Below, one piece after another: positions 16,792 to 63,434 of a DNA stretch of 64,000 nucleotides (position 1 is its first letter; each line of letters begins with the position of its first letter). Both the position numbers and the translations under genes were made by a program. The DNA comes from Opitutales bacterium (GTDB lineage: Bacteria; Verrucomicrobiota; Verrucomicrobiia; Opitutales; Coraliomargaritaceae). The DNA is taken from the NCBI GenBank assembly GCA_018607135.1, contig JABBCA010000018.1:1-64000 (forward strand), in the 5' to 3' direction. The notes under the pieces were generated by a model. It searched no databases and was not told where the DNA came from. It saw nothing but the letters and a program-made list of their open reading frames with translations.

Positions 16792-16815
16792 AAGCCTCAT
16801 CCTAGGATGAGGCTT
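16792..16815 (-). terminator. Palindromic terminator downstream of tRNA-Leu
   Basis: AAGCCTCATCCTAGGATGAGGCTT, a perfect 24-nt palindrome followed by T-tract on the minus strand. Confidence 0.75.
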
Positions 16816-28652: not shown

Positions 28653-30203
28653 ATGCAAAGAACCGCACTGCTCTCCGTCAGCGACAAATCAGGCCTCGTG
28701 CCATTTGCCAAGGCGCTCGTTGAAAACTATGATTATCGTCTCCTTTCTACAGGCGGCACTGCTAAGCTTTTAGAAAAAGAGGGCATTCCTGTCACTGAAG
28801 TGAGCGACTACACTGGGTTTCCTGAAATGATGGAAGGCCGTGTGAAGACCTTGCACCCAAAAATCCACGGCGGTCTGTTGGCACGCCGCGACAAAGCGGA
28901 CCACATGGCAGCAGCTTCTGAGCACGGTATCGATATGATCGACCTCGTTGTGGTGAATCTTTACCCATTCGAGGAAACCGTGGCCAAGCCTGACGTGACC
29001 TTTGAGCTGGCGATTGAAAATATCGATATCGGCGGCCCTTCCATGCTCCGTTCTGCGGCAAAGAATCATGCGTCCGTTTCCGTTGTCGTCGATGCCGCTG
29101 ATTACGATCGTGTGCTCGCTGCGATGGACGACGAGGCCGCACTGACAAAGCTACGCCGTGAGCTCGCGCTCAAAGTATTTCAGCGCACCTCTGCATACGA
29201 TGGTGCGATCTCTAAATACCTAGAAGGTCAACTCAGTGATGAGCCAGACCTAGGCGAACTTTCTGGTATCCCATCTAAGTTGGAGATTCAACTTCCACAA
29301 GTGCAGAGCCTTCGCTACGGTGAGAATCCACACCAAAAGGCCGCGCTCTATGGCAGCTTTTTTGAGTGCTTCAATCAACTCCAAGGTAAGGAGCTTAGCT
29401 TCAACAATATCATCGATATCACTGCGGCCACTTATTTGATCGGTGAGTTTCAGAAGCCAACCGTTGCGATCCTCAAGCACACCAACCCTTGCGGTGTGGC
29501 GTCTGCTGAGACTCTTGTCGAAGCCTGGGAGCAAGCATTTGAAACCGACAAGCAAGCACCGTTCGGTGGCATCATCGTGGTCAATCAAACCATGGATGCC
29601 GACCTTGCCGCAATCATCAGTAAGATTTTCTGCGAAGTGATCATTGCACCCGACTTCACTGCAGCGGCGCGTGAGATCTTTGCGAAGAAAAAAAATCTCC
29701 GCTTGATGACAGTGAAGGGCACACTTCCAGCCGATTCCCTCCAAGAAATTCGCTCTGTTGTGGGTGGTGTTTTGATGCAAGACCGCGACACCATGCCAGA
29801 CCGCCCAAGCGACTGGAAGATCGTCTCCAAGCGTCAGCCAACCGCTGAAGAAATGCGTGCCATGATCTTCGGATGGAATGTGGTGAAACACGTGAAGTCC
29901 AATGCGATCGTTTACGCAGGTTGCGAACGCACACTCGGTGTCGGTGCAGGGCAAATGTCGCGTGTCGATAGCTCCAAGATTGCGGTTTGGAAAGCAGGCG
30001 AAGCAGGTCTTGGTCTTGAAGGCTCGGTAGTCGCTTCCGATGCATTCTTTCCATTTGCAGACGGTCTCATTGCCGCCGCTGAAGCCGGTGCCAAAGCCGC
30101 GATTCAGCCCGGTGGTTCCGTCCGCGACGATGAAGTCATCGCTGCAGCCGACGAGCGCGACATGGTCATGGTCTTTACTGGCAAGCGCCACTTCAAGCAC
30201 TAG
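28653..30203 (+). CDS. purH: Bifunctional AICAR transformylase/IMP cyclohydrolase
   Basis: [78 protein letters not shown]. Confidence 0.97.
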
Positions 30204-59023: not shown

Positions 59024-59212
59024 GCACTTCGAGTTGCACAAGCCTAAAGCGGCGTCTGCACGTGTAAATTTGTCACCATAGGAATTAGGGGCACATCGGA
59101 AAACGTAAACAAAATTAAGCACTTTCAACTTGCTCAGACCCATTTACAGACGAAATTTTGCGCGGCCGCATATGTGCGAAAGTAATTGGTTATATTCTAG
59201 GGCATCCCATTG

Positions 59213-60029
59213 ATGAATACATACAGATCAATCATCATTTGTTTGATCTGTTCGGTGACTGCTTCGCAGGCCGCAGACATCTATGTCGGCCCTGCTGGCT
59301 CTGACCTCAACCGTGGGGGAGCCGGTGAACCACTTGCCTGACTCAGCGCAGCACAACAAAAGGCGAAGTCATTCGCAGGCAAAGAGGCCGTGACGGTGCA
59401 TGTCGCCGATGGCGTTTATTATCTTCCATCGACCGTGGTTTTCACACCCGAAGATTCTGGCACAGCGCAGCATCCAGTTCTCTACAAAGCCGATAACGAT
59501 TAGAATACTCAATGCGCCGTGCGTCATGATGGAAAGCGTTGACTCGGAAGGAGAGTTTTCAACATTTGCGCGCCCGGTCGTATCAAAGCGAATTGTGCGT
59601 GCTAGCCCGAAAACAAGTAACAACTCTGTCGCCACGCTAATTGATGGGAAATTAGTTACCGACTATGGCCCTGTTTTTAAAAATCGCATACCCGTAGGCA
59701 TGTATAAAATGGATTTGGGTGCGAGTCAGCCTGTCTATGCAATTACGAGCTGGTCCTACCATCTGAATGGCACGCGTGGACCGCAGCTTGTGACCGTCTA
59801 TGGCTCAAGCTCTGATCGAGATCCGGGCTGGGGTTTGCAGGATGCTCAGAAGTTCGAACCGCTTGGGACGATTGATCTCCGCACGATCCGACTCTCTAAG
59901 TATACCGCAGTTTCACTGGTTGCCGCAAAGGGCTTAGCGCTCGGAGACTACAGATGGATCGTATGGGAAACCGCTCCAGTGACGAAGAACGGGGAGCACA
60001 CAGCGTTTCAAGAGCTTAGCGTTCTGTAA
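59213..60029 (+). pseudogene. Decayed secreted right-handed beta-helix-type gene
   Basis: MNTYRSIIICLICSVTASQAADIYVGPAGSDLNRGGAGEPLA*LSAAQQKAKSFAGKEAVTVHVADGVYYLPSTVVF...; in-frame stops at 59339 and 59501, then a second-frame remnant (IPVGMYKMDLGASQPVYAITSWSYHLNGTRGPQ). Confidence 0.75.
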
Positions 60030-60311
60030 GGCAGATACATTGAGATGAACCTCTTTTCAGGCACTCGTTGCTACAGCTGGTTAAAAGTTGGCCACACCAC
60101 AGAGTTTTGGGGCCACATAGCGGTGTCCGCTCTCAGAAATAGACGGTGCGCTCACGATCCGTAGAAACGTATTAACGCACAAGAAGTTCTACACGATGAC
60201 CTTACAGAAAATAAAGAACGTGTTTCCAGAGGGAGAGAAAGCCTAGCTCGAGTAGTTTGCTTTCACCTCCGCCTAGGCTGTTTTCATGAAAATTATAGAT
60301 TTTGATTGCAT

Positions 60312-60349
60312 CCGAACCCTGAATGTAAATATTTACATTCAGGGTTCGG
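60312..60349. repeat. Perfect 38-bp palindrome
   Basis: CCGAACCCTGAATGTAAAT|ATTTACATTCAGGGTTCGG, 19-nt arms, no spacer. Confidence 0.98.
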
Positions 60350-60392
60350 CAATCCCTATACTCGACTCGTTAACCTCAACCCCATATTAAGT

Positions 60393-61700
60393 ATGTTTGT
60401 CTATAAGAAAATTAAGTGCGCTGCTGTTGCGCTATTCGCTGCCTGTTCGGTCACGGTATCCGATGCGGCGATGTCGAAAGGTGAATTGTTTGAAAACTCA
60501 TATTACGCAATCGACGCGATGCGGACTCCTGAAGGAATGTATCGAGATAAATGGAATTTCTACACACCTCAAGATAACCGAGGTTCGATTGCCAACGTCG
60601 GCGTCGGAATCATGGCACTCTGTATTGCCGATTCGATGGGCTGGGAGAACAATGCCCAGGCCAAAGTGATCCAGACACTGGAGACGGTAACCAATGGAGC
60701 GCCGACTGCAACTGGCTATATCTGGATCGACCGCAATGAGACCGGATACTACCGACACTTCTTTGACACCACAACGGGGGCGAATGTCGGTAACTCTGAA
60801 TACAGCACGATCGACACCGCGATCCTAGCCAGTGCCGCGCTCTTTGCGAAAAACTATTTTCAAAACGGTGCCGTGTCCTATTGGGCCGAACGCGTCTACC
60901 GTGGTGTTGACTGGAGCCGTGCCATCGCCGATCCGAATGCAGGAACGATTTTCCTTGAGATGCAGGCCAATGGTTTCGGCGTTCCCGGGCAAACAACCAG
61001 CACTTTTAATGAATACATGATTGTCGCCTATCTCGCCATGCTAGCAAACAATGGCAACGGGGGAGCAGCGACCAGCTTATGGAATAACTATTACGGAACT
61101 ATCCCAAATCTTCCGACCAGTGGCTATTGGCAGTATTCCCTGCTGACCGATGCTCCCGGCACCTTTATTTCTGGTTTCATTCCGCAGTTCAATTATTTCT
61201 ACTGCAACGCGTTTTCTTCGAATACTCAGTATGTTGACTATTTGCGAAACGCAGCGGATGCCGATGCGCTCTGGTTCACACATTCTGGCTACGGCTGGGC
61301 TCCTTACTGCTGGGGTGTGGGTGCAGGCGCTTCCCCAGTCGCAGGCGGATACAACGCGGACAAAATTGCGAACAACCCTTGGATGGTCGTTTCTCCGCAC
61401 ATCATCGGCGGTTACTCAGTCGGGAATGTCTATTCGGGGCCCAATGCAGTCGATTACTCAAACGACTTGGCTCCCCTCGAAGACAACTTCGGCGCATCCC
61501 ACTATTACATCAACGGACGTAAAATTATCTGGAGATTCAGTCTGAGTGATCCTAATTGGAAAGCACAAGATCTCCAAGGTATTGATTACTCATCGATGCT
61601 ATTCGGTCTAGCCAGCCTGTATGGGCATTGCGGCCCCAACTTCTTCAACCAGCACAATAACTATGCGGGAACGACGCATTGGTTTCACAAATACTGGTAG
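60393..61700 (+). CDS. Secreted glucoamylase-family/GH144-like protein
   Basis: Signal peptide MFVYKKIKCAAVALFAACSVTVSDA; GYYRHFFDTTTGANVGNSEYSTIDTAILASAALFAKNYF; W/Y-rich catalytic-like region. Confidence 0.6.
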   Translation: MFVYKKIKCAAVALFAACSVTVSDAAMSKGELFENSYYAIDAMRTPEGMYRDKWNFYTPQDNRGSIANVGVGIMALCIADSMGWENNAQAKVIQTLETVTNGAPTATGYIWIDRNETGYYRHFFDTTTGANVGNSEYSTIDTAILASAALFAKNYFQNGAVSYWAERVYRGVDWSRAIADPNAGTIFLEMQANGFGVPGQTTSTFNEYMIVAYLAMLANNGNGGAATSLWNNYYGTIPNLPTSGYWQYSLLTDAPGTFISGFIPQFNYFYCNAFSSNTQYVDYLRNAADADALWFTHSGYGWAPYCWGVGAGASPVAGGYNADKIANNPWMVVSPHIIGGYSVGNVYSGPNAVDYSNDLAPLEDNFGASHYYINGRKIIWRFSLSDPNWKAQDLQGIDYSSMLFGLASLYGHCGPNFFNQHNNYAGTTHWFHKYW

Positions 61701-61774: not shown

Positions 61775-61805
61775 AAAGCCCGCTCGAGAGAGCGGGCTTT
61801 TTTTT
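61775..61805 (+). terminator. Rho-independent terminator
   Basis: AAAGCCCGCTC-GAGA-GAGCGGGCTTTTTTTT. Confidence 0.85.
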
Positions 61806-62143
61806 GATCCTAGCTCGCGTCGTTGAGAGCCCGCATCCCAAGAACCAGAGTGTGTCGAGACTTGCGGGCAGATGGTTGGGATCAAGAGCGCAAGGCTAGG
61901 GGGATTCTATCTTCTACGTTTGAACCCTTTTATGACCCCCAAGGAATGTAATGAGTAATTTGTTCATAGTTGTTATGACAACTTTGGAATGTAGGCGCTT
62001 TTTAGTTGTATAAGGTTGTGCATGACAAGGAAATAAAAATTGAGCTAAAAACCGGGTCAGGGGCTGTAAAGGGTGCAGGGTGGCTGTTAAGGGGGCATCT
62101 TTTTGCCGACCCCTTTTTGCCCCTGCTGTATCTTTTGCGAAGA

Positions 62144-62380: not shown

Positions 62381-62441
62381 TATGAAAATGGGGTCATTAT
62401 GAAAATGGGGTCACATTATGAAAATGGGGTCATGTCGTTAC
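62381..62441. repeat. Cluster of three TATGAAAATGGGGTCA repeats at the RAYT 3' end
   Basis: Copies at 62381-62396, 62398-62413, 62417-62432; the last overlaps the RAYT stop codon. Confidence 0.95.
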
Positions 62442-63434
62442 CTTTGCAATGAGTTCTTTAAATGCCTCTTCCGTGTCCTGTTTATTAGCCTTAAAAGTGC
62501 CAACGTAGCGACTGACTGCGTGGGGGACGCCCATGTTTAGGTTGTTTGCGATCCAACCATTTGTGGCGCTGGTTCGTGACTTGAGGACTGCCGCAATTAA
62601 TATCTTCCAATCCGCTGATTTGATATCCAGACTGCAGTCAACCTCAGTTTTCTGAAGCAACTGCATGCACGCATCGAGCATCAGCTCCCACCTAAGCTCA
62701 TTCGCTTCTTGCAGAGTGGCGCCATCGTAGCGAGGGACTTTTGAGGTGGGCTCATCTCCTTCCTCGTTGTCATCTTCGACTTCTGCTATCAGCGCCTTCT
62801 TGAATGCTTTGGTGCCCAATGCCCAACCTCGGCACATTTTATCAAATGCCATTTTATCCTGCGCGCCTTTGTCATTCGTGAGCCAATTCAGATAGTCTGC
62901 ATACTTGCAGCGACCATAACTCGTATCGGCTAATCCGCCAGCGGCGAGGAGCGCTCCAGAGCAATCCATGAAAGCAGGACGCTTTGCGGGATGGTTCAAA
63001 TACCAATAGCTTGACCATCGGTAATCACGCAGCCCCTTTACGTCGGTCATGCCTGCTCGCACGGGATTCAGATGCGTGTAATGGAGTAGGGCGCCCAGAT
63101 AGCCGTCCTCTTCAACGATCAAGCTCTTGTAGCGACCTTGGAATAGTTTTCCATGCACTTTGCGAAACTTGTGGTAGCGATTCGCGAAGGTCGATTGCAG
63201 CCACTTCATCCCATAAATCAAATTTCCCTTCGGAGTGCGCACGACTAAGTGGAAGTGATTCGTCATCACGCAAAACCCTTCGAGGATCCACCCGCACTTC
63301 TCGCAGGTTTCAAATAGACATTTTTCAAAGGATTGGTGCGCACCTTCGTTGATGAACACATCCTGGCGGTAGTTCCCGCGGTTGATGATGTGATACACAC
63401 CATTTTCTTTTTCAATGCGTAGACTTCGTGGCAT
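62430..63434 (-). CDS. REP-associated tyrosine transposase (RAYT, IS200-type TnpA-REP)
   Basis: MPRSLRIEKENGVYHIINRGNYRQDVF, VMTNHFHLVVRTPKGNL (HUH), FQGRYKSLIVEEDGYLGALLHYTHLNPVRAGM. Confidence 0.95.
   Translation of the reverse strand: MPRSLRIEKENGVYHIINRGNYRQDVFINEGAHQSFEKCLFETCEKCGWILEGFCVMTNHFHLVVRTPKGNLIYGMKWLQSTFANRYHKFRKVHGKLFQGRYKSLIVEEDGYLGALLHYTHLNPVRAGMTDVKGLRDYRWSSYWYLNHPAKRPAFMDCSGALLAAGGLADTSYGRCKYADYLNWLTNDKGAQDKMAFDKMCRGWALGTKAFKKALIAEVEDDNEEGDEPTSKVPRYDGATLQEANELRWELMLDACMQLLQKTEVDCSLDIKSADWKILIAAVLKSRTSATNGWIANNLNMGVPHAVSRYVGTFKANKQDTEEAFKELIAKVTT

Follow-up and report, generated by a model that had tools for sequence, protein, structure and literature searches.

The window (the whole stretch of DNA analysed, 64,000 nucleotides) carries a gene for a secreted GH194-type enzyme, preceded by a 38-bp palindrome, CCGAACCCTGAATGTAAATATTTACATTCAGGGTTCGG, which is exactly self-complementary, has 19-bp arms without a spacer, and ends 43 bp short of that gene's start codon (ATG at 60393; Table 1). 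These properties had been described in an earlier note on this DNA, together with the lack of a terminator T-tract, and all of them were confirmed. No other perfect palindrome in the window is as long, the runner-up being a spacerless one of 24 bp (AAGCCTCATCCTAGGATGAGGCTT, 16792-16815). Perfect palindromes of 38 bp are expected about 2e-7 times per window (~64000/4^19), and the largest found in 60 Markov-simulated windows measured 18 bp. A genome search, which the earlier note had proposed, returned a single copy at ≤3 mismatches, both in the window and in the 3.53-Mb genome; many copies unrelated to promoters were not found, and neither of the two further congeneric genomes searched contained the palindrome. 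Directly upstream, a decayed secreted-protein gene with in-frame stops (59211-60029, + strand) and a weaker, separate inverted repeat with a long loop (60240-60282, AGCCTAG...CTAGGCT) were observed.

A terminator reading of the palindrome was rejected, as no T-tract follows either arm and the terminator scan found no terminator-like site, an intrinsic terminator combining a hairpin with such a tract. The symmetry does continue beyond the palindrome, with five further base pairs past a bulge, and the fold predicted for RNA is very stable (MFE -33 kcal/mol, z -7.2). This stability, as well as a perfect symmetry that exceeds the need of a LacI operator, would suit an element that works as an RNA hairpin or a DNA cruciform, either stabilising the 5′ end of the mRNA as a stem-loop transcribed from upstream, or blocking transcription that comes from the decayed region. 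However, neither a T-tract nor a terminator call accompanies it, the Rfam hits are weak, mostly to microRNA models and all far below gathering scores (an Rfam RNA family was rejected on this ground), and the recurrence of the palindrome core without long arms in four β-1,2-glucan promoter regions (see below) would be left unexplained; this role is therefore considered very improbable.

A REP-associated tyrosine transposase-like gene (Y1_Tnp/RAYT-like, 62430-63434, - strand, below the NCBIfam cut-off) is located 2 kb away, which would agree with a mobile-element relic, be it a REP/RAYT singlet, as the earlier note had suggested in the alternative, or a pair of fused terminal inverted repeats. 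The singlet proposal fails because the element is single-copy in the genome, whereas REP elements are multi-copy, and the palindrome is for this reason not taken as a REP/RAYT family member. Moreover, the half arm (≤2 mismatches) gave one extra match only, non-palindromic and at an unrelated locus, no target-site duplication is visible, and the RAYT gene has no matching repeat alongside, leaving a mobile origin exceedingly unlikely.

Table 1. Features of the window and of the β-1,2-glucan locus on contig C5 of the same genome.
Feature	Position	Strand	Basis or remark
Perfect spacerless 38-bp palindrome with predicted operator inside	60312..60349	.	Sequence, genome pattern search, simulation
Predicted operator core TGTAAATATTTACA	60324..60337	.	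Common to 4 promoter regions of the C5 β-1,2-glucan locus
Extended hairpin	60304..60354	+	GATTG/CAATC prolongs symmetry past 3-nt left bulge (CAT); sequence and RNA fold
Possible promoter	60332..60362	+	TTTACA 60332-60337, 19-bp spacer, TATACT 60357-60362; read by eye
Secreted GH194-type endo-β-1,2-glucanase, 435 aa, presumed regulated gene	60393..61700	+	PDB match 8xuk
Intrinsic-terminator-like hairpin with T-tract, after GH194 gene	61775..61806	+	Inverted repeat 61775-61800, then T run
Motif site before GH1	C5:16914		9-46 nt 5′ of start codon (range for the four C5 sites)
GH1 β-glucosidase	C5:16963-18303		PF00232
MFS_2 sugar transporter	C5:18321-20114
Motif site before GH144-containing operon	C5:20195
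Two secreted proteins without Pfam families	C5:20255 and C5:21047		PEP-CTERM-like tail in the one at C5:21047
GH144-type protein	C5:21743-23410		PF10091; endo-β-1,2-glucanase 5gzh among its PDB matches
Pilin-like protein	C5:23846
1,2-β-oligoglucan phosphorylase (SOGP, GH94)	C5:25098-28484	opposite	PF21958/PF21250/PF21270, PDB match 5h3z
Motif site before SOGP	C5:28494
LacI-family regulator	C5:28551-29603	-	ATG at 29603; PF00356 and Peripla_BP_3
Motif site before lacI, TGTAAAACTTTACA	C5:29645		41 nt from lacI ATG

The enzyme gene downstream of the palindrome

The product of the downstream gene gave no Pfam or NCBIfam match, and its sole relative in the PDB is 8xuk (PgSGL3, H744_1c0222; E 8.7e-59, residues 23-433), the Group 3 β-1,2-glucanase on which family GH194 was founded and whose catalytic acids, D148 and E214, were shown by mutation (PMC12102758). 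The two proteins are alike in their full-length similarity, which covers the whole domain as in a GH194 member, in both catalytic acids (D148 and E214 correspond to D141 and E207 in the window protein, with a chain-numbering offset deduced from the construct length) and in being secreted single-domain enzymes, while PgSGL3 comes from a different phylum and the window protein is known from its sequence. The gene had been described as glucoamylase-like in the earlier note; the PgSGL3 match and the two catalytic acids place it with GH194 instead. The carbohydrate-responsive control envisaged in that note, on the other hand, gains support from a downstream gene that encodes a β-1,2-glucanase-type protein.

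No orthologous GH194 gene whose upstream region might show a conserved site was found, as none of the 372 other genomes in the order sample contained one. A phylum sample held only four distant relatives with ~30% identity, and the motif described below (2 mismatches) was not found closely upstream of any of them. The absence from the 372 genomes of the order, combined with these four distant relatives, suggests that the GH194 gene was acquired from outside.

A core shared with the β-1,2-glucan locus

When the region was searched as DNA against the same genome, a partial look-alike emerged on contig C5, 5′ of a GH1 β-glucosidase gene. A scan with AATGTAAATATTTACATT (≤3 mismatches) matched six places, and a 12-kb part of C5 accounted for three of them. 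The left flank CCGAAC also resembles the flank of the GH1 site, being too short to be relied upon. With the 14-mer TGTAAATATTTACA (≤2 mismatches), 13 sites were found in the genome: one in the window, a group of four on C5, and eight dispersed ones. The dispersed sites are at background level, as the backwards control pattern gave 10 matches, and all eight lie inside ORFs, whereas the window site and the four C5 sites stand 9-55 nt before start codons; an upstream placement of 5/5 against 0/8 has a chance of 1/1287. For C5 alone (44.7 kb), four sites compare with 0.11 expected (Poisson P ~6e-6, or ~4e-4 once ~79 contig-sized pieces are allowed for), and relaxing the search to ≤3 mismatches added none there. 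At ≤1 mismatch only two sites remain, those of the window and of GH1.

The C5 sites belong to a locus that is regarded here as dedicated to β-1,2-glucan utilisation, because SOGP and GH144 have known roles in it; in addition, a GH1 enzyme active on sophoro-oligosaccharides has been reported (PMC12369401). Since the similarity to PgSGL3 extends to both catalytic acids, the product of the window gene probably acts outside the cell as the first enzyme of the pathway, which the C5 locus would complete. The identities of the window gene and of the C5 genes were established independently of the motif.

The outer 10-bp arms of the palindrome (CCGAACCCTG/CAGGGTTCGG) have no palindromic copies elsewhere and are common to no other site, the symmetry of the other sites mostly stopping near the core. 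The earlier operator proposal is thus made more precise: the inner 14-18 bp of the palindrome are shared between promoters, and the remainder is not. As the other sites do without them, the outer arms appear not to be needed for shared recognition. Template switching at quasi-palindromes is known to perfect inverted repeats (PMC7202029), and the arms probably arose or were perfected by such a mutation at a quasi-palindromic operator, which would be their simplest origin. That they are functional themselves, as a second nested symmetric site or a cruciform forming a compound switch for the newly acquired GH194 gene, seems doubtful; were it true, the other promoters of the regulon would have no such compound switch.

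The predicted regulator and its operator

The core very probably serves as an operator of the LacI-family regulator whose gene is on C5, a prediction drawn from the recurrence of the site and the features of the protein. The earlier note had proposed the operator of a dimeric, carbohydrate-responsive regulator and had named LacI first, which is supported by the occurrence of the core in four promoter regions of the locus harboring this lacI gene. The element shared by the five upstream regions is an even palindrome of 14 bp, extending to 18 bp in the best sites, as in LacI-family operators, which are mostly even palindromes of 16-22 bp with a central CG (PMC4052901). The operator reading would most likely place the unlinked GH194 gene in the β-1,2-glucan LacI regulon, although the regulator gene and the window site are on different contigs, which counts against it.

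According to this proposal, in the absence of inducer a LacI dimer would bind at the core and block GH194 transcription, both the binding and its sign being conjectural. Sophoro-oligosaccharides or another breakdown product of β-1,2-glucan would presumably act as inducer, upon which the regulator would leave the window site and the four C5 operators (GH1-transporter, GH144 operon, SOGP and lacI), and this joint release would switch on the whole pathway. A candidate -35 element, TTTACA, sits in the right half-site of the core. The promoter candidate is weak, because its spacer is longer than the 16-18 bp allowed in the promoter scan, which does not list the TTTACA/TATACT pair, and the start site is deduced.

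None of the five sites has the central CG, their central pairs being TA, TA, CA, TG and GT/AC, which somewhat lowers the standing of the core as a LacI operator, this feature not being strictly defining. A central CG was reported for 1173 of 1303 LacI regulators, and is thus common but not universal, the centre being different in 49 regulators and degenerate in 29 (78 of 1251 even motifs; PMC4052901). It has been described that the central CG pair is lost together with the hinge Leu (PMC2329647). At the hinge, the sequence is YRPNPGARLI in the C5 regulator and its orthologs, compared to YRPNAVARGL in CcpA, with Ile at the conserved Leu position of CcpA, and this Ile hinge fits an operator without a central CG.

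The genome encodes seven LacI-family proteins, the family covered by our survey, and a motif common to several promoters does not alone name its protein, so that a different dimeric regulator (another LacI, or one of the GntR, AraC or TetR type) could also bind the C5 promoters. Such a regulator is unlikely, given that the other six LacI proteins carry Leu (five) or Met (one) at the hinge position, which predicts a central CG, and that a motif site precedes lacI within the cluster, autoregulation having been reported for 72% of LacI regulators (PMC4052901). The recurrence of the motif with the LacI ortholog in a related genome likewise speaks against it.

Four further genomes of the family encode orthologs of the proposed C5 regulator, with 54-73% identity. 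In the closest (G016, 73%), SOGP follows the regulator as on C5, and the motif is found before SOGP (TGCAAACATTTACA) and before lacI (AGTAAATATTTACT), so that a site in the position expected for autoregulation is present in both genomes. G015 and G018 speak against the proposal, as in neither was a clear site seen 5′ of lacI, and SOGP is not adjacent. Across 44 genomes of the family, an 18-mer (≤2 mismatches) was found in 5/5 with the LacI ortholog and 2/39 without it, a count given little weight because its places are mostly away from glucan genes. Indeed, the extra sites in the relatives are mostly not before β-1,2-glucan genes, and their contexts are for the most part unconvincing. One copy with two mismatches (L070 1501-1518, G015:C71) lies 48 nt before a gene for a secreted protein with a PEP-CTERM tail, a type of protein present in the C5 regulon too. 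Another copy with two mismatches, on G018:C131, lies ~300 bp after a GH144-like C-terminal remnant (L075 953-1518), which may be what is left of a further member of this regulon. For a LacI protein of Neptunicella with 32% identity, no motif was found and no β-1,2-glucan genes were recognised nearby.

Known LacI systems and biological meaning

The predicted regulon resembles known LacI systems (CcpA cre, PurR and the LacI regulons of RegPrecise) in its even palindrome near sugar-catabolic genes, and in being a local regulon with an autoregulated lacI gene. It differs from them in the centre of its operators, TA, CA, TG or GT where known operators mostly have CG, in the embedding of the window copy in a 38-bp perfect palindrome compared to motifs of 16-22 bp, and in the unlinked position of the window target gene. 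Two points of the predicted operator would be unusual, its long perfect symmetry and a centre other than CG that goes with the changed hinge residue of the regulator. A further close parallel, which favors the LacI reading, is the SOGP cluster of Listeria innocua, which holds the LacI gene lin1838 and for which LacI control was suggested by the authors, no operator being named in the passage concerned (PMC3960220). According to that passage, SOGP and a LacI-family gene are likewise united in one β-1,2-glucan cluster, the Listeria cluster having GH3 and an ABC transporter, whereas GH1, an MFS transporter, GH144 and GH194 are found here.

No published operator governing the use of β-1,2-glucan in Verrucomicrobiota (Opitutales) was found in the literature. 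The present analysis offers a predicted transcriptional switch for this use in Opitutales, in which both the sites and the regulator are specified, and would show how an unlinked and sporadic enzyme gene (GH194) can come under the control of a sugar regulon already in place. The combination of an Ile hinge with a non-CG operator would provide a testable point in the recognition rules of the LacI family, and the 38-bp symmetry may represent a natural product of quasipalindrome template switching.
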